Source of the DNA: an uncultured Nitrospiraceae bacterium | Lineage (GTDB): Bacteria; Nitrospirota; Thermodesulfovibrionia; Thermodesulfovibrionales; Dissulfurispiraceae | Direction: 5' to 3' | Length of the DNA stretch: 64,000 bases | Assembly (NCBI GenBank): GCA_903822005.1 | Contig: CAIJNL010000002.1 | Coordinates: 1 to 64,000, forward strand | Shown here: in pieces, positions 41,981-57,654 of the stretch | Layout of the letters: each line of letters opens with the position of its first letter | How positions within the stretch are numbered: the stretch's first letter is position 1 | Made by a program: the position numbers and the translations under genes | The notes under the pieces: model-generated | What the model saw: only the letters and a program-made list of their open reading frames with translations | The model's database searches: none | What the model was told of the DNA's origin: nothing

Positions 41981-42037
41981 CCTGCTTCCCCCTTACTGAT
42001 TTCGTGATCTATATAATAATCTCTGCATTATTGCAAA

Positions 42038-42109
42038 CTGGGGCGCCAGGATTCGAACCTGGGAGTGGCAGATCCAAAATCTGCTGGCTTACCGCTTGCC
42101 GACGCCCCA
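42038..42109 (-). tRNA. tRNA-Gln(UUG)
   Basis: A 72-base tRNA on the minus strand with acceptor TGGGGCG/CGCCCCA, D-arm GGCAAGCGGTAAGCC, anticodon stem GCAGA/TCTGC around TTTTGGA (anticodon TTG), and T-arm CCAGG-TTCGAAT-CCTGG. The discriminator base is G as in E. coli tRNA-Gln, and CCA is not encoded. It leads the prs operon. Confidence 0.95.
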
Positions 42110-42222
42110 AAACGTCGACATATCAAGTGCATAAGGCGATATCAAGATTACCATAAACCCTCTAAAACCGTCAATAAACATCAAAATGCGGGCAATTTGC
42201 GCGCATTATTTGGAGTGGTCTA

Positions 42223-45685: not shown

Positions 45686-46441
45686 ATGACCGACTCCCCA
45701 AACAAAATTGATGCTGCACTGCAGCTACTGGGCGAAAATGAAGAGGCCCTGCTTCTTAATGCCATGTCACGCGCGACAACTGCTTATAAAGAAACGCCCA
45801 ACAGCGCAACACTCAAAGAATTCGCAGCGGCAAAACAGGCGCTCGAAGATTACCAGGCGCGGAAGAATGCCGTGGTTAATCCGGATGAACAGCGGTTTGG
45901 CAACCTGCTGGAGGCCCTGTCATATATTCGCTCAGAGGGATGGAAGTGCAGTAAGAGCAAGCTGTACGAAGACCAGGGCAAGATAGAACGGCAGAAAGAC
46001 GGCAATTTCCTGCGGCGCGATATCGACAAATACGCCGAAAACTTCCTGAAGAAGATCGATGCCTCAGATGGCGATACTAACGACTCCCAGGAGCTGCAGA
46101 AATGGGAAATTGCCATTGCAGAGGAGAAGCATAAAAAACTACAGCGCGAAAACGAAGTGCAGAGTGGACTCTACTTGCGGAAGACCGACGTTGAGCACAT
46201 GCTGGCCGCCCGCGCCGCCTTTTTGAAAGACAATCTCGGGCCCACGTTTATCCATAGCCGTGCCAGCGGTCTCATCACTCTTGTAAAGGGCGATCCGGAC
46301 CGCGCACCAGAGTTTATAGATGCCTGGACAAAGCATATAGACGAAATGTTTGATCTGTATTCAAAGCCCTTCCAGTTCGAGGCAGCTTATATCCCCAAGG
46401 TGGAAGACGACCTTGCTATTGAAGAGGCGGTGAAAGAATGA
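45686..46441 (+). CDS. small terminase subunit-like protein
   Basis: A 251-residue protein immediately before the large terminase, overlapping it by four bases. The middle part carries a DNA-binding helical region (ALSYIRSEGWKCSKSKLYEDQG, close to the terminase-small winged-helix), and the C-terminal part is a long helix (LQKWEIAIAEEKHKKLQRENE) typical of oligomerising small subunits. It should recognise the packaging site. Assigned by position and these features, not by a strong family match. Confidence 0.65.
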   Translation: MTDSPNKIDAALQLLGENEEALLLNAMSRATTAYKETPNSATLKEFAAAKQALEDYQARKNAVVNPDEQRFGNLLEALSYIRSEGWKCSKSKLYEDQGKIERQKDGNFLRRDIDKYAENFLKKIDASDGDTNDSQELQKWEIAIAEEKHKKLQRENEVQSGLYLRKTDVEHMLAARAAFLKDNLGPTFIHSRASGLITLVKGDPDRAPEFIDAWTKHIDEMFDLYSKPFQFEAAYIPKVEDDLAIEEAVKE

Positions 46442-48393
46442 ACACTGCCACACTATTTGATGATAGCCCTCGCCTTTTCTACCCTTTCAGGTTTTTTCCG
46501 GCCGAACGCAAGGTCTTTGCGCGTAAAGAAGACATCCCCCCGAGCGTATGGAATGAACGGAACCGCATAGTCACCATCGGCGCGCACAAGGGCCCCTGGC
46601 GCAACGAGATATCACCGCACCTGGTAAAGATCATGGATACCTGGGCGCAGCCATGGGTGCGTGAGGTCGTTATCTGCAAATCGCCGCAGACCGGCGGTAC
46701 CGAAACCATGTACTGCTGTGAGGCCTACGCAGCTGAACGGGACCCGGCCACGGTGATGTTCGTCATGCCCAGCCGGGCCGATGCTACAAAGATAGCCACT
46801 GACCGCATAATCCCCATGATCGAACAAACCCCTTGCCTGCGAGATCTCGAGACCGGCAACCCAGACGACAGCGCCTCTTTGCGCATCAAGCTCCGCAACA
46901 GCGAACTCATCTATCTGGCATGGTCCAATAGCGCCAGCGCGCTGGCAACCTTCCCCATGAAGCGCGTCTATTTTGACGAAATTAATAAATACCCCCCGTT
47001 GGTGGGTAAGGAGACGGATCCCATCACCCTGGGCGAAAAGCGCGCCCGTACATACCGATATACATATAAAATATTCAAAGTCTCCACCCCCACACGCGAA
47101 GAAGCGCCAATAACAGTCGCTATGAAGAGCGCTGATGTCCTGTATCTGAGACATGTGCCCTGCCCTTATTGCGGGGAATACCAGGAAATGACCTTTGACA
47201 GGCTCACCTGGCCGCAGGACATTGATCCAGAGACTATACAGCGCCTGTCCCTGGCACGCTATAACTGCAAGCACTGTAATAAGCCATGGACTGATTCAGA
47301 CCGCGACATGGCACTTCCCCGCGCGAACTGGATAGCAAGCAAAGGAGCTGATATAGAGCGCCCGCGCAGTGTCGCCTTTCATCTACCGAGCTTTATCTCT
47401 CCGGACGTGAGCCTGAGCGAAATAGCGGCTGCCTATCTGCGCGCAAAAAATAGCCGCGCCAAGCTCATAGACTTTTACAACGATTATCTTGCCCAGCCCT
47501 TTACCGATGACCTTGAGGGCGAGACCGTCCAGGAAGAGACCCTTTACAACCGTCGTCAGGCTTACGGGCCGAAAAACGCAGCGTGGCAGGTACCGGCTGC
47601 GGCATGCATCCTGACCTGCTTTGTCGATATTCAGGGCAACAGGCTTGAGTCTGAAGTTGTAGCCTGGGGCCCGGGCAATGAATCATGGGGTATAGAGTGC
47701 CGGATATTCCCCGGCGATCCGTCGCAAGAGCAGGTCTGGAAGGACCTGGACGAATATCTGAAGCGCGAATGGCGGCACGAAAGCGGTCTGCAGATGCGCC
47801 TCAGCATTACCGGCATCGACAGCGGCTTTAAGGCGCGCGATGCATACCGGTTTATAGGTCCCAGGCAGGCCCGCCGCATATATGCGTGTAAGGGCGTTGA
47901 CACTTACGGCAAACCGCTGCTTAGCATACCGTCTTTACAGGCCCATCGCAAGACGATAGCGAAACTCAAAAAAGTCGCCGTTATAAATATAGGCACGGTA
48001 GAGGCAAACAACACTATTTACAGCTGGATGCAGATCGAGCAACCCGGGCCAGGCTATATGCACTTTCACGAAGGATATAGCTACGACTACTTCCGGCAGA
48101 TTACCTCTGAAAGGGCCCTGGTCGAATACGACAAGGCGGGCAAGCCCCGCAGGGTATGGAGAAAGAAGCACAGAGAGGCGCCGAACGAAGCCTTAGATAT
48201 CCGCAGGGGTAACTACGCCATGCTCGAGCTGCTCAATCCAAACTGGGCGGTCCTGCAAGAGGCCTTTGCTTCTCGGGTAAAAGCACTGAAGGGCCAGAAG
48301 CCGAGCGAGACCGTTAAGCCCGATGTGGCGTCGCGGCCGGCAGTAAAGCCTGCCAAAAACAAACGTCGGGTGCTCTCGAAGGGCATAAGTTAA
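46438..48393 (+). CDS. large terminase subunit, lambda GpA family
   Basis: A 651-residue packaging motor of the GpA family. The N-terminal ATPase shows VVICKSPQTGGTETM as the Walker-A-like site and MKRVYFDEINKYP as Walker B. CxxC pairs PCPYCGE and YNCKHCNKPW form a zinc finger near 240-280, and the nuclease domain follows with LTCFVDIQGNRLE and TGIDSGFKARD. It packages DNA into proheads and cuts it. The protein ends in KRRVLSKGIS, a short motif shared with the next gene's product. Confidence 0.94.
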   Translation: MNTATLFDDSPRLFYPFRFFPAERKVFARKEDIPPSVWNERNRIVTIGAHKGPWRNEISPHLVKIMDTWAQPWVREVVICKSPQTGGTETMYCCEAYAAERDPATVMFVMPSRADATKIATDRIIPMIEQTPCLRDLETGNPDDSASLRIKLRNSELIYLAWSNSASALATFPMKRVYFDEINKYPPLVGKETDPITLGEKRARTYRYTYKIFKVSTPTREEAPITVAMKSADVLYLRHVPCPYCGEYQEMTFDRLTWPQDIDPETIQRLSLARYNCKHCNKPWTDSDRDMALPRANWIASKGADIERPRSVAFHLPSFISPDVSLSEIAAAYLRAKNSRAKLIDFYNDYLAQPFTDDLEGETVQEETLYNRRQAYGPKNAAWQVPAAACILTCFVDIQGNRLESEVVAWGPGNESWGIECRIFPGDPSQEQVWKDLDEYLKREWRHESGLQMRLSITGIDSGFKARDAYRFIGPRQARRIYACKGVDTYGKPLLSIPSLQAHRKTIAKLKKVAVINIGTVEANNTIYSWMQIEQPGPGYMHFHEGYSYDYFRQITSERALVEYDKAGKPRRVWRKKHREAPNEALDIRRGNYAMLELLNPNWAVLQEAFASRVKALKGQKPSETVKPDVASRPAVKPAKNKRRVLSKGIS

Positions 48394-49321: not shown

Positions 49322-50080
49322 ATGAAAGAACGAAGCCTTATTTATCACCCTTCAGGCCGTGCCGGTGCATACGCCAATGGCGGGTATGCAGCCAATATCT
49401 TCAAGGGGTGCACCCATGGCTGCAAGTATTGTTACGTGCCGGCATTCTGCAAGGTCGACCGAGTGGCTTTCCATGCCTCGGTCACGCCAGCGCCGAACAT
49501 GCTAAAACGCCTCGAAGCCGATATGAAGCGGATAGGCGTTGTTGATGAGCCGATATTCCTTTGCTTTACCTGCGATCCATTCTGTGCCGCCGCCCCGACG
49601 CAGTTAACGCTTGATGCCATCAAAATTATTATGGCATCCGGCAATTCAGTAAATATTCTGACCAAGGGATGGTATGTACGGCAGGATGCTATTGATCTAT
49701 TGGCAGAGAATCCGCTGAATAAGTTTGGCGTTACACTGACATTTTCTACGGAGGCATTAAGCTCGCAATGGGAGCCAAAGGCGGCAATACCTAAGAATCG
49801 CCTTTTAATATTGCGCGACGCTCATCACGCCGGGATATCCACATGGGCATCTATCGAACCTGTGATAATACCCGAACAAAGTCTGGCTATTATGGAAGAA
49901 GCCAGTCCTTACGTCGATGAATTCAAAATTGGCAAATGGAACCATGATAAGCGAGCTAATGATATCGACTGGCCTAAGTTTGTGGCTGATGCGATCGCAC
50001 TGATGGAAAAGCTCGGTAAGAAATATGTGCTCAAAGGGGATCTGCTGAAGTACAAGGCAGTAGAGGCCGCCAAGTGCTGA
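49322..50080 (+). CDS. radical SAM enzyme, SPL-like
   Basis: A 252-residue radical SAM protein. The [4Fe-4S] ligands are C30, C34 and C37 in GCTHGCKYCYVP, a pattern like spore photoproduct lyase and similar small radical SAM enzymes. Supporting marks are CFTCDPFC near 80 and LTKGWYVRQDAIDLL. Members cleave SAM to a 5-prime-deoxyadenosyl radical. It is full length for the SPL-type core only. Encoded in a phage beside a ParB-like protein and a second radical SAM enzyme, it may act on DNA, but the substrate is unknown. Confidence 0.85.
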   Translation: MKERSLIYHPSGRAGAYANGGYAANIFKGCTHGCKYCYVPAFCKVDRVAFHASVTPAPNMLKRLEADMKRIGVVDEPIFLCFTCDPFCAAAPTQLTLDAIKIIMASGNSVNILTKGWYVRQDAIDLLAENPLNKFGVTLTFSTEALSSQWEPKAAIPKNRLLILRDAHHAGISTWASIEPVIIPEQSLAIMEEASPYVDEFKIGKWNHDKRANDIDWPKFVADAIALMEKLGKKYVLKGDLLKYKAVEAAKC

Positions 50081-50295
50081 TCCAGGCCATCATTGTGGTC
50101 TGTAGTTGTATTTCTATCGGCCTGCTAAGTTCAAAGAAGCACTTCCGGTACGGCTTTATTGCCGGTGTGGTCGGACAGCCCTTTTGGATATATGAGACGC
50201 TAAGGACCGAACAGTGGGGCATGTTTATAGTCAGCCTCTGGTTTATCTGGTCCCATGCCAGGGGAATAAAAAATAATTTCAAATGGAGGATTTAA
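50074..50295 (+). CDS. small membrane protein
   Basis: A 73-residue protein with two hydrophobic helices (LIQAIIVVCSCISIGLL at the start, and FIAGVVGQPFWIYE through FIVSLWFIWSHA). GTG 50074 overlaps the end of the radical SAM gene. It looks like a holin-sized membrane protein, but its place among modification-type genes gives no clear role. Confidence 0.55.
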   Translation: MLIQAIIVVCSCISIGLLSSKKHFRYGFIAGVVGQPFWIYETLRTEQWGMFIVSLWFIWSHARGIKNNFKWRI

Positions 50296-50300
50296 AGGAT

Positions 50301-50993
50301 ATGCAGAACATAGCTGACCTTAAAAACAGCGGCGCCGACTATAATCCTCGTAAGATATCAAAAGCCGAACTTGAGCGTCTAAAAAAAGCGCTGGATGATT
50401 TTGGCGACCTCGGCGGCATCATTTTCAATCGACGCACCGGGCGCCTCGTCGGCGGACATCAGCGCATCAGCGTATTGCCTGTCGATGCTGTGATAGAAAA
50501 AACAGAACTATCTGATCGCACGCGCACCGGCACCGTCGCGCATGGATATATCATAATTGAGGGCGAACAGTACGCATATCGTGAGGTTGACTGGGACGAG
50601 ACGCGCGAGAAAGCGGCCAACATTGCAGCCAACGCGCATGGCGGAGACTGGGACAATGATAAACTTGCAGACCTGCTCAAAGAACTCAGCGATATCCCCG
50701 AGTTTGATTTCGGACTCACAGGGTTTTCGCCTATGGAATTCGAAGACCTCTTTGCTTTTGGTACTTTAGATCCATCGCCGATGAAAAAAGCATTTGAAGG
50801 CAACCGTGGCGGTAGTGATATCTCGTCCGCCGAATCACAGCCAGGCACGCCCGTTAATGAAAAATATCCTCTCACCGTAATCCTTGATCATGATGAATGG
50901 CAGGTCTGGGAGTCGGCAAAGGAGAGGGCGGGCATTCGCAATGACAAAGCAATGATCCTAAAACTCATAGAAGGAGGCGACGAACAATGTTAG
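50301..50993 (+). CDS. ParB-like nuclease-domain protein
   Basis: A 230-residue protein with a ParB N-terminal-like domain: DYNPRKISKAELERLKKALDDFG, then NRRTGRLVGGHQRISVL with the GGHQR motif, the C-motif equivalent. Such phage ParB-type proteins hydrolyse NTPs or nick DNA and are often beside methylases. ATG 50301 was chosen because GGAGG lies ten bases upstream inside an earlier in-frame ATG at 50283. It overlaps the second radical SAM gene by seven bases. Confidence 0.82.
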   Translation: MQNIADLKNSGADYNPRKISKAELERLKKALDDFGDLGGIIFNRRTGRLVGGHQRISVLPVDAVIEKTELSDRTRTGTVAHGYIIIEGEQYAYREVDWDETREKAANIAANAHGGDWDNDKLADLLKELSDIPEFDFGLTGFSPMEFEDLFAFGTLDPSPMKKAFEGNRGGSDISSAESQPGTPVNEKYPLTVILDHDEWQVWESAKERAGIRNDKAMILKLIEGGDEQC

Positions 50994-52177
50994 ATATATT
51001 TTGGGGCGGTTATTTTTTCCATCCGGCCGCGCTCGACTATTCCGGCGACACCTGCCAGAACGGCTGCGCATACTGCTTTGCAAACATTAACAAGGAATTC
51101 CGAGAGGGCAATTTAAAGGGTGCCATCAACGCATTATACAAAAAGCAGCCTGCAACATATATGGATCAGCTGCTGAGTGAAGGGTATCCCATATGCATCA
51201 GCAACCGGTCTGATGCCTTTGCCGCCAATAATATCAGGGACACGCGGGCACTGTTTACGCACCTGGCCGAGGCGAAGAACGGATTATTTATACAGACCAA
51301 GTGCGGCCCCGAGATGGAATCGCTGATAGCCATGCTCGGCGATCGCCGCGACGTTATTATCTATATCACCATCACCACAATCCGCGACGAAATATCAAAA
51401 ATCGTAGAGCCCAACGCCCTGTTGCCGGCAGAACGCCTGGCAATAGCAAAAAGACTGCATGCGGCAGGATATCTGGTACTCATAGCCGTAAACCCGCTGG
51501 ACGAAGCCTGGATGCCGCGCGAAGACCTTGAGGCGTTGACTGCGGATCTCAAAACGGCCGGGTTGAATCATATATGCCTTGAAATGCTCGACATCAAACG
51601 CAAGCGCCTGGGGACCTTGAGCGCCGGCCGCAGAAAGAGGCTACTCGACGCCGTTGACAATCTGGGCATAGCAAACCGCAACTACGTGCGCGAATGTACC
51701 CAGTATCTCATACAGCAGGGCTTCATCGTATGCAAAAAAGGCATGCCTTACCGCACCGAATTTTACAACGACATCAGCGCTCGCCTTGGTCTCACCATGC
51801 CGGTGCTGCAGGATTTTGTTAATTACTGTTTCGATACCTATGGCACATCGGCCAGGGTAATCAACTATGCGGAATTCGCAGCCGTAATCGCAAAGGCTGA
51901 TTTTTTTAAAAGGACATTTCATCAGAACACCCTGCGCGGATATCTTCTGCGGTCAGGCTTCGATACCTGGAGGGACAACAAACAGGTACACAGCCATAAA
52001 GAGCTGCTTAGCGTTATATGGAACGATCCGCGACACAAAATGGGCATCCGCAATCACAGCCTCTTCAGGGCAGTAGGCCGTGGTAAAACCGCGACCCTTG
52101 ATGAGAGCGGAAACGTGCAGTTGTACTTCGATGGCGCGCCGCATTTCGGCGGCAAAAAGGAGGTGATAGAGCTATGA
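50987..52177 (+). CDS. second radical SAM enzyme
   Basis: A 396-residue radical SAM protein with C23, C27 and C30 in CQNGCAYCF. The core barrel ends around residue 230; the last 160 residues are a further domain rich in aromatic residues (VLQDFVNYCFDTYG) of no family I recognise. It differs from the first radical SAM enzyme in size and sequence, so the pair is not a duplication. It is followed by a 12-codon frame that overlaps its stop by four bases. Confidence 0.82.
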   Translation: MLDIFWGGYFFHPAALDYSGDTCQNGCAYCFANINKEFREGNLKGAINALYKKQPATYMDQLLSEGYPICISNRSDAFAANNIRDTRALFTHLAEAKNGLFIQTKCGPEMESLIAMLGDRRDVIIYITITTIRDEISKIVEPNALLPAERLAIAKRLHAAGYLVLIAVNPLDEAWMPREDLEALTADLKTAGLNHICLEMLDIKRKRLGTLSAGRRKRLLDAVDNLGIANRNYVRECTQYLIQQGFIVCKKGMPYRTEFYNDISARLGLTMPVLQDFVNYCFDTYGTSARVINYAEFAAVIAKADFFKRTFHQNTLRGYLLRSGFDTWRDNKQVHSHKELLSVIWNDPRHKMGIRNHSLFRAVGRGKTATLDESGNVQLYFDGAPHFGGKKEVIEL

Positions 52178-52212
52178 AGAAGGGCGAATACTGGGGCGGC
52201 GAGTGGTACTAG
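52174..52212 (+). CDS. 12-codon reading frame after the radical SAM gene
   Basis: An ATG overlapping the radical SAM stop opens a frame coding MKKGEYWGGEWY, then TAG. AAAAAGGAGGTGAT, close to a perfect anti-Shine-Dalgarno match, lies ten bases upstream. It could be a tiny substrate peptide for the radical SAM enzyme, or the truncated start of a longer gene: its last 15 coding bases recur at 63615-63629 in the same frame. Too short to call a gene on sequence alone. Confidence 0.3.
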   Translation: MKKGEYWGGEWY

Positions 52213-52215
52213 CCG

Positions 52216-52244
52216 AAAAAAAGAGGCGGGGCCGTCCCCGCCTC
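52216..52244 (-). terminator. leftward intrinsic terminator
   Basis: GAGGCGGGG (52223-52231) and CCCCGCCTC (52236-52244) form a perfect nine-base stem with a four-base loop. The A-run at 52216-52222 is the T-run for leftward transcription, so it ends the ribbon-helix-helix unit. Confidence 0.85.
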
Positions 52245-52260: not shown

Positions 52261-52482
52261 TCAAATATAAATATGCCACTCCGTTGCCGTGCCTTCCACC
52301 CGCACTATATCACGCAAAATCGCCAGGCCTGTGCCCAGGGCCGTGATCCGCGCCTGCCGAGGAACTTTTGCCAGGAAATAGCGGTCCTTCCGCGGGTTGC
52401 GTTTTGTGCTGAACTGCTTTTTTTCTCCGCTTATCACTGCCGCATATGTCTCAGGCGGCAGGCCCACACTGAGCGGCCTCAT
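52261..52482 (-). CDS. small leftward cassette protein
   Basis: A 73-residue basic protein starting MRPLSVGLPPETYAAVISGEKKQFSTKRNPRKDRYF, with no family I can name. The fold may be ASCH-like (short beta, basic loop). Its start overlaps the stop of the ribbon-helix-helix gene by four bases, so the two are coupled. Its stop lies 16 bases before the terminator. Partner, toxin or adaptor roles are all possible. Confidence 0.55.
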   Translation of the reverse strand: MRPLSVGLPPETYAAVISGEKKQFSTKRNPRKDRYFLAKVPRQARITALGTGLAILRDIVRVEGTATEWHIYI

Positions 52483-52637
52483 TTTACACCCCTTGCGAGT
52501 ATGTATAAAATATACTGATTAATACTCACTCCGTCGGCTGTCGCGCCTGCGCGTAGACGCTCCGCCAGGCTAATCGGTATGCGGATCGTGATCCGCGTCG
52601 CCTGCCCTGGGACAGGTATGTTTTTTGGTTTTGGCAT
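52479..52637 (-). CDS. ribbon-helix-helix (Arc/Mnt-type) regulator
   Basis: A 52-residue protein, Arc-sized: QATRITIRIPISLAERLRAG as the beta strand and first helix, then TADGVSINQYILYILARGV as the second helix. It has GGGGGCGAT before its ATG and lies behind a perfect leftward sigma-70 promoter. It faces the AcrVA2-like operon across 94 bases of shared control region and is the natural candidate for regulating that operon and itself. Confidence 0.72.
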   Translation of the reverse strand: MPKPKNIPVPGQATRITIRIPISLAERLRAGATADGVSINQYILYILARGVK

Positions 52638-55732: not shown

Positions 55733-55954
55733 GTGGCCCCGGCCGGCATCACACTCGCCCAGGCTGAAGAGCAGCTTATTGCCTGGCTCAATGCCAGCAA
55801 GGCAGTTGCTAAAGGCCAGCACTATAAGATTGGCGAACGTCAGCTCACCAGGGCAAACGCCGCCGAGATCCAGCAGCAGATCACCTTCTGGGACGCCAAA
55901 GTCAGACTGCTCTCCCGAGGCGGCCGCAGATCCTACAGGGCGGTGCCGATCTGA
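55733..55954 (+). CDS. gpW/DUF6148-like head completion protein
   Basis: A 73-residue protein (GITLAQAEEQLIAWLNASKAVAKGQHYKIG, then RANAAEIQQQITFWDAKVRLLSRGG), matching the small head-joining gpW/DUF6148 group that sits before lambda-type portals. It starts at GTG 55733 after GGGAGG and overlaps the portal start by one base. It caps the packaged head before tail joining. Confidence 0.75.
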   Translation: MAPAGITLAQAEEQLIAWLNASKAVAKGQHYKIGERQLTRANAAEIQQQITFWDAKVRLLSRGGRRSYRAVPI

Positions 55955-57654
55955 TGAGCGGAACCGCTACAATCGAAAGCAAGGTCAAGCGCGCAAGCAA
56001 CGCCACTATTCTCGACAAAGCCATATCATACATCAGCCCCGCAGCCGCAGTAAGCCGCATAAAGAACCGCATGCTGTTTGCCGCTTTCAGCGACAGTGCA
56101 TATGAGGGCGCCAGCCGCCTTAAACGCGCTTTAAGGACCTGGTTCCCAGCGCTCGGCTCCGCAAACACAGACCTTAACACCGCCACACGCCAAAGTCTTA
56201 TAGCCCGCTCACGCGACGCATACCGTAATCAGCCGCTCGCAAAAGCCATTATCATGCGCTCCTCAGATAGTGCCATAGGAGACGGCCTGATCTTGCAGGC
56301 CCGCGTAGACTGGAAAACCCTTGGCATTACAGAAGAAGAAGCCGCCGCTTTCGAAGACCTCATAGAGTCCGAATTCAGCGCATACGCCAACAGCGCCGAG
56401 TGCGACGCAGAGCGCACACTTAACTTTTACCAGCAGCAGTACTTGGCATTTGCGTCAGCGCTCTCCTCGGGCGACTGCTTTGCACTCACACCGTACATCC
56501 GGAGGCCCGGCAACATTTACGAGATGAAGGTGCAGATGATCGAGGCCGATCGCGTCTGCAACGAAGGCAACGCCGGCAATACCGCACAGCTCTTCGATGG
56601 TGTTGAATATGATACTTACGGCGCGCCGGTGCAATATCATATCTGCCGGGCGCATCCTGGCGACATAGTAGTCAATTCCGAAAAGAATTTCACATGGGAC
56701 CAGGTGCCGGCCTTTGGCGCAAATACAGGCAGACGGCGCGTAATACACGTTTACTGGAAAGAGCGCCCCGGCCAGTCTCGCGGCATTCCGATCCTGACGC
56801 CGATCCTGGAGCCGCTGAAACAGCTTAGCCGCTATACCGAAAGTGAATTGATGGCCACGGTCATCAGTTCATTCTTCACCGTATTTATTAAATCTGACGC
56901 TCCGGACATGGGCTTGGGCGAAACCGACCCGCTGAATACGAACTCCGGCAACAGTGATGGTTCCACCAATGAGAACCCTGACAGGCCCAGCATGGAACTC
57001 GGCAGCGGCAAGGTAGTCGAGCTCTTCCCCGGTGAAGACATCTCCACCGCAAACCCCGGCAGGCCGAACACAGCCTTTGACGGCTTTGTGATGGCAGTGC
57101 TCAAACAGATCGGCGCAGGCGTAGGCATACCGATTGAAGAAATACTGCTGTGCTATACGGGTTCATACAGCGCAGCCAGGGCAGCAATGCTGCAGGCCTG
57201 GAAGATGTACAAAACCCGCCGCAAGTGGTTTGCAACACAGTTCTGCCAGGTCATTTATGAAAACTGGTTTGATGAGGCTGTTGCCCGCGGCCGCATAGTG
57301 GCCCCTGGGTATGGAGATCCCCGCAAGCGCATAGCCTATACCGGCGCAGACTGGCGCGGACCTGCCAGGGGCGCCATTGATGAGACCGACGAAATTACCG
57401 CCGCCCAAAAGCGCGTAGATATGGGCGTTTCCAGCATAAGCATCGAGGCCGCAGAGCTTAAGGGCGTCGACTCGCGCGACATACACCGGCAGAGGGTGCG
57501 CGAACACACAGACCGCGTTAGAGACGGCCTGGAAGCCCCTGTGCTCAACGCTGCAGCCAGGGAAGTAATTACCCCGGCGCCCACAGCTCCCTCAAAAACG
57601 CAGCAGGAACGGCAGCGGGAAAAACTGCAGGACAAGGAAGGAGCGATTAAATGA
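55954..57654 (+). CDS. portal protein, lambda gpB family
   Basis: A 566-residue portal of PF05136 type. Marks include SRDAYRNQPLAKAII near the start, NVIHVYWKERPGQSRGIPIL-like sequence in the middle (VIHVYWKERPGQSRG), GIPIEEILLCYTGSYSAARAA and a Lys/Glu-rich C-terminus. It forms the ring through which DNA enters. It is overlapped by the protease gene by four bases. Confidence 0.92.
   Translation: MSGTATIESKVKRASNATILDKAISYISPAAAVSRIKNRMLFAAFSDSAYEGASRLKRALRTWFPALGSANTDLNTATRQSLIARSRDAYRNQPLAKAIIMRSSDSAIGDGLILQARVDWKTLGITEEEAAAFEDLIESEFSAYANSAECDAERTLNFYQQQYLAFASALSSGDCFALTPYIRRPGNIYEMKVQMIEADRVCNEGNAGNTAQLFDGVEYDTYGAPVQYHICRAHPGDIVVNSEKNFTWDQVPAFGANTGRRRVIHVYWKERPGQSRGIPILTPILEPLKQLSRYTESELMATVISSFFTVFIKSDAPDMGLGETDPLNTNSGNSDGSTNENPDRPSMELGSGKVVELFPGEDISTANPGRPNTAFDGFVMAVLKQIGAGVGIPIEEILLCYTGSYSAARAAMLQAWKMYKTRRKWFATQFCQVIYENWFDEAVARGRIVAPGYGDPRKRIAYTGADWRGPARGAIDETDEITAAQKRVDMGVSSISIEAAELKGVDSRDIHRQRVREHTDRVRDGLEAPVLNAAAREVITPAPTAPSKTQQERQREKLQDKEGAIK

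Follow-up and report, generated by a model that had tools for sequence, protein, structure and literature searches.

A ParB-fold protein, a radical SAM enzyme and a WGGxW micropeptide encoded together in a Thermodesulfovibrionales prophage

The window is the whole stretch of 64,000 nucleotides that was analysed. It lies on contig C2 of a host genome of 3.23 Mb and is spanned from about 42.2 kb onward by a Thermodesulfovibrionales prophage. A tRNA-Gln gene (42037-42110, minus strand) is found near the left prophage end and is a possible attachment site. The prophage encodes a terminase large subunit (46438-48393), a portal protein (55954-57654), a head maturation protease and a major head protein. 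Four genes sit between terminase and portal; they are encoded on the same strand and overlap in succession. All four had been predicted from the sequence alone, in this order and in a phage; the genes and the prophage location are both borne out. The prediction ended the row at 52177; it is in fact prolonged to 52212 by a micro-ORF that had been missed.

The first gene (49322-50080, plus strand) encodes rSAM1, a phage-type SplB-like (COG1533-like) radical SAM protein of 252 aa (Pfam Radical_SAM, 1.7e-10). The second (50074-50295, plus strand, GTG start) encodes a 73-aa protein matching phrog_22312 ('membrane protein', 1.6e-8), in keeping with the small membrane protein that had been proposed. 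The third (50283-50993, plus strand) encodes a ParB-fold protein of 236 aa. Its assignment to ParB holds: PHROG families of ParB and ParB-methyltransferase type (498, 9353 and 620) match at about 1e-25, and no Pfam match was found. Its N-terminal domain carries the GxxR box, with G58 and R61 invariant in the ParB alignment; the box reads GGHQR and, together with an insert, is common to the ParB proteins of loci L005 and L082, its closest relatives. The fourth gene (50987-52177, plus strand) encodes rSAM2, 396 aa, in which a core (residues 1-252) and a C-terminal domain (about 253-396) are delimited from relatives and from an AlphaFold2 model.

The micro-ORF (52174-52212, plus strand), recognized by conservation at the peptide level, encodes the 12 residues MKKGEYWGGEWY followed by a stop codon. 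Its start overlaps the rSAM2 stop (ATGA). A consensus Shine-Dalgarno sequence, AAGGAGGTGAT (52157-52167, plus strand; read from the sequence), precedes it within the 3′ end of rSAM2, and a GC-rich terminator-like hairpin (52223-52244, plus strand; -21.3 kcal/mol, z -3.0) directly follows it. A convergent gene (52261-52482, minus strand) then encodes a 73-aa protein with the motif KRNPRKDRYF, which has no match in Pfam or PHROG. A counterpart of this gene is conserved behind the micropeptide in L179, L181, L182, L184 and L185. A 52-aa ORF resembling a ribbon-helix-helix DNA-binding protein (52479-52637, minus strand) lies just upstream of it on the minus strand, and the two possibly form a two-gene unit.

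The two enzymes had been described as different radical SAM proteins with intact 4Fe-4S cysteines. The cysteines are indeed intact: CxxxCxxC is invariant in both families (18/18 sequences for rSAM1, 11/11 for rSAM2). Both proteins are radical SAM enzymes, but they are not unrelated. They share 24% identity over 197 residues and their profiles align (hhalign, 99%, E 1e-18), which identifies them as distant homologues. By the neighbourhoods of their relatives, the row joins two modules, rSAM1 and ParB-rSAM2. Conservation of the gene set had been fixed beforehand as a check: pairs of genes are conserved, the full set is not.

Relatives of rSAM1 (34-56% identity) occur across many phyla, on viral and MAG contigs and in prophages. 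Neighbours were counted at 50 distinct phage-type loci and at 40 chromosomal SplB-like control loci. A ParB domain is within reach of the rSAM1-family gene at 13/50 loci and at 0/40 controls (Fisher p 4e-4), and a partner of about 190 aa with a DxDxYG-type motif and weak TRM1 similarity at 10/50 and 0/40 (Fisher p 2e-3); these counts are lower bounds because contigs end within loci. Both ParB and the Trm1-like protein are near an rSAM1-type gene at nine loci. This triad, whose order varies, is carried by phage or MAG contigs and is apparently undescribed (L004 1452-4213, L009 2810-4732, L010 3038-5008, L014 1013-3315, L082 1108-3020, L094 594-2721, L101 1660-3585, L102 3903-6079, L109 7995-9901). 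A relationship of the Trm1-like protein to TcmP was considered and rejected, the alignment being confined to a 14-residue SAM-binding-like loop. At nine other loci (L080, L086, L087, L088, L089, L092, L097, L100, L108), TcmP (TIGR04474) is encoded directly upstream of an rSAM1-type gene, which replaces DUF5131 in this pairing. In genomes G013, G027 and G050, TcmP is likewise a neighbour of SplB-like proteins. An N6/N4 DNA methyltransferase gene lies 15 bp upstream of one rSAM1 type (L002), and a ParB-methyltransferase accompanies an rSAM1 relative in L005. rSAM1 is therefore one of a broad family of phage radical SAM proteins whose neighbours (ParB, Trm1-like protein, TcmP, methyltransferase) are often methyltransferase-like. 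In the window, neither a TcmP nor a Trm1-like partner was found alongside rSAM1.

Searches with the single rSAM2 protein gave no match in viral contigs, phages or genome contigs, and only a distant PA0069-family match in plasmids. Taken alone, rSAM2 is also below the cut-off of Pfam Radical_SAM (5.6e-4); its family profile and its model are clearly those of a radical SAM protein. The family was recovered by a scan with the pattern CxNGCxYCFAN, then by profile scans with the family alignment. Twelve members were recovered, plus a remnant in L184. Full-length relatives, from viral contigs, share 28-59% identity with the window protein, C-terminal part included. The C-terminal domain was looked for in 396 genomes of the phylum; two marginal matches of 46 residues aside, only the genome of the window has it. 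Two candidate relatives were rejected: a radical SAM protein of 392 aa in L109, which is spore-photoproduct-lyase-like and matches PF20903, and DUF4417, which gave no alignment.

All ten other loci with upstream sequence have a ParB gene ahead of rSAM2 (L181, L182, L183, L186, L193, L194, L195, L196, L198 and, as a remnant, L184). It is directly upstream, with one or two small ORFs between in L186 and L194. The ParB-rSAM2 pair is thus conserved in other phages. In L184 (1-514), the start of ParB is fused to the tail of rSAM2 and the micropeptide is retained; the junction may reflect a natural deletion or an artefact of assembly. Of the 12 other rSAM2 contigs, many of them fragments, 11 gave no match to the rSAM1-family profile other than rSAM2, and one gave none at all. 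A DUF5131 (radical-SAM-like) gene lies upstream of ParB-rSAM2 in L195 (3047-3700); this phage, like that of the window, therefore has two such enzymes. rSAM1 would be a second, separable accessory enzyme beside the cassette.

A second conserved frame at the rSAM2 stop was first seen by comparing L179 with the window. All ten loci of the closer rSAM2 clade, window included, have a micro-ORF after rSAM2. The peptides are 10 to 16 residues long; the core WGGxW is present in all ten, followed by Y or F in nine. Besides the window peptide, they are MKTLWGGGWY (L179), MKTAWGGGWY (L184), MKTDWGGGWY (L185), MKAIREWGGNWY (L182), MRNVREWGGDWF (L181), MKKTLTWGGEWY (L186), MENHQVEWGGDWEG (L183), MKRVEKDILTWGGAWY (L193) and MKKINDSILPWGGAWY (L194). 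The ATG nearest the motif was taken as start; the starts of L182 and L193 are less certain because an earlier in-frame ATG is present. L179, L181, L183, L193 and L194 were retrieved through the enzyme, the peptide not being used. In IMG/VR (2.9 million contigs), three scans for DNA patterns of the peptide matched 5, 5 and 8 contigs, and each of these carries an rSAM2 locus. Within 1.75 Mb of retrieved DNA, ATG-started frames ending in WGGxW plus 0-3 codons are found at rSAM2 loci only. Phylum-wide pattern matches were rejected as micropeptides: the pattern allowed TGG for the stop, and the matches are mainly WGGWWFW-type motifs lacking a stop.

Glycine codons (GGC, GGT, GGA), tyrosine codons (TAC, TAT) and the stop codon all vary among the micro-ORFs; conservation is therefore of the peptide. 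The offset of the micro-ORF from the rSAM2 stop ranges from -29 to +35 nt. The conserved tail was also considered as a frameshift extension of rSAM2; this is rejected at least in L183, where a stop occurs in the micro-ORF frame beyond the rSAM2 stop. AGGAGG precedes the micro-ORF in GC-rich loci, including L179, L181, L182, L184 and L185, and is missing in L183, L186, L193 and L194. Lack of a Shine-Dalgarno sequence would be usual if the hosts of these four loci were Bacteroidota. A comparable hairpin follows the micro-ORF in 8/9 relatives examined (9/10 with the window). The distant rSAM2 relatives L195, L196 and L198 (28-29% identity) keep ParB and lack the peptide; a ParB-rSAM association may therefore have an older, peptide-free role. 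The heart of the find is, on this comparative evidence, a cassette of three mostly overlapping genes of about 2 kb, ParB - rSAM2 - micropeptide.

The AlphaFold2 model of rSAM2 had a pLDDT of 44 when computed from the single sequence and about 90 from 12 sequences (pLDDT 89.6, pTM 0.89). The best Foldseek match in the PDB is spore photoproduct lyase (E 2e-5), and the matches include C140 mutants of this enzyme. Against radical SAM structures, Z scores are 13-17. With VIA-align, the pyruvate formate-lyase (PFL)-activating enzyme (Z 17.4, 224 residues, 3.5 A) and spore photoproduct lyase (Z 16.6, 236 residues, 3.5 A) are close to tied. Structure matches are limited to residues 1 to about 250. The modelled core thus resembles both spore photoproduct lyase and the PFL-activating enzyme, the latter having a peptide substrate.

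The proposed explanation is that rSAM2 modifies the micropeptide. The micro-ORF would be translated, and rSAM2 would be active and reductively cleave SAM. The 5′-deoxyadenosyl radical would then be used on the aromatic and glycine-containing C-terminus of the micropeptide; a Trp-Trp or Trp-Tyr cross-link, or attack at Gly, are possible outcomes. Such a process would amount to radical-SAM maturation of a leaderless peptide. The ParB-fold protein would be an NTP-binding or nucleic-acid-binding partner, and the modified peptide would exert its effect in infected or lysogenic cells. The specific pairing of a short precursor-like gene with rSAM2 (all ten closer-clade loci, 8/8 pattern matches) argues for this reading. 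Against it, DNA enzymes are found in the sequence family around rSAM2 (spore photoproduct lyase, SplB), and elsewhere ParB is often partnered with methyltransferases. Peptide modification is considered a real possibility, at slightly less than even confidence, and confidence is no higher mainly because the distant relatives lack the peptide.

The original prediction was a DNA modification or repair module. A nucleic-acid modification would have ParB bind phage DNA and recruit rSAM2 (and rSAM1), the altered bases resisting host nucleases and the micropeptide being a small subunit, an allosteric factor or a donor. The neighbours of rSAM1 in other phages fit such a role, the top Foldseek match of rSAM2 is a DNA enzyme, and phage ParB-fold proteins are found fused to DNA methyltransferases or to DUF4417 (PNAS 2025, PMC12704722). 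The strict pairing of the WGGxW(Y/F) peptide with rSAM2 is left unexplained, however, and N6/N4 methyltransferase genes are absent from 10/12 rSAM2 contigs (many of them fragments) and from the host genome. The predicted module is partly supported, through the neighbours of rSAM1; the partner peptide of rSAM2 points at least equally to peptide chemistry, and action on nucleic acids is rated as possible but rather doubtful. Repair of UV thymine lesions by rSAM1 and/or rSAM2, as by spore photoproduct lyase, is suggested by the SplB-like superfamily and by the Foldseek ranking, and is very improbable. The SPL-like character proposed for rSAM1 is retained at superfamily level only: NCBIfam TIGR03886 gives 15.4 bits for rSAM1 and 15.6 bits for rSAM2, against a cut-off of 437.55, and neither protein matches PF20903 (Pfam). 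Spore photoproduct lyase requires a cysteine outside CxxxCxxC, and the three cluster cysteines are the sole ones conserved in the alignment of 18 phage-type rSAM1 sequences. In rSAM2, Cys70 (8/12) and Cys281 (9/12) are frequent but not invariant and could at most be candidate equivalents of the lyase cysteine. The micropeptide could also be regulatory, its translation controlling rSAM2 synthesis, mRNA stability or termination, and not be a substrate. Its start overlaps the rSAM2 stop with a hairpin immediately after, and short Trp/Tyr-rich ORFs before hairpins recall attenuators. The micro-ORF is nevertheless the last gene before the hairpin, and a convergent gene comes next in the window and in five relatives; there is therefore little to attenuate. 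Moreover, the peptide core stays the same over varying distances to rSAM2, and a regulatory role is judged unlikely.

Each part of the cassette belongs to a known superfamily; for the combination, no described counterpart was found. In the part of the literature covered, no paper was found on radical SAM enzymes with phage ParB cassettes or hypermodification, nor one describing a micropeptide of WGGxW type. rSAM2 represents a full-length radical SAM family for which Pfam, NCBIfam and PHROGs have no dedicated model and sequence comparison gives no solved relative. The micropeptide gene is unannotated, too short for usual gene callers and tied to rSAM2 across diverse phages. The co-occurrence of enzyme and micropeptide in other phages points to a phage biochemical system that is probably undescribed. 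Should rSAM2 act on the peptide, the latter would be a very small substrate for a radical SAM enzyme, and phages would make a new class of modified peptide; should its target be DNA or RNA, the cassette would be a radical modification system linked to ParB that is so far undescribed. With reserve, the whole is proposed to be a phage radical SAM enzyme with a ParB-fold nucleotide switch, whose substrate would be a leaderless 10-16 residue peptide ending in WGGxW(Y/F); it would serve effector maturation, or modification of nucleic acids in dependence on the peptide, and no counterpart of such a system is described.

Several known systems share features with the locus. Spore photoproduct lyase and SplB-like proteins have the same CxxxCxxC and core fold as rSAM1 and rSAM2, and SplB-like motifs are found in both (SFTxDPY / SNRSDPF, LTKGG / QTKxG, WEPxAAxPxER / xEPNAxxPxER). 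Both are far below the cut-off of the SplB-like NCBIfam models (PA0069, Rv2578c, mobile-pair B), and, unlike SplB-like proteins, rSAM2 adds a C-terminal domain and a micropeptide partner. TcmP/DUF5131 (Gp37-Gp68, PF07505) pairs are related in that the rSAM1 and DUF5131 profiles align (probability 86%, E 5e-6), whereas rSAM1 has no PF07505 match at E<1. A canonical DUF5131-TcmP pair is present in the host genome (G000, contig C4, 12589-14438) and is its sole TcmP match. In the phage ParB fusions, as in the window, a ParB domain is tied to an enzyme in a prophage, but the ParB of the window is encoded by a gene of its own, which overlaps its neighbours; the main text on these fusions makes no mention of radical SAM (PMC12704722; 0 occurrences of 'radical'). 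The rSAM2 core aligns structurally with the radical SAM RiPP maturases SuiB and SkfB. Peptide modification would be common to the cassette and to RiPP maturation systems. In contrast to these, the rSAM2 C-terminal region shows no conserved SPASM-like Cys cluster (family alignment), and neither a maturation protease nor a transporter was noticed beside rSAM2; both absences speak against the peptide reading. Biarylitides derive from ribosomal pentapeptide RiPP precursors (PMC12951456), and the size of the micropeptide alone therefore does not exclude a precursor role. Like the cassette, they associate a very short aromatic peptide gene with the gene of an oxidative enzyme, which is a P450 in their case and would be a radical SAM enzyme here.
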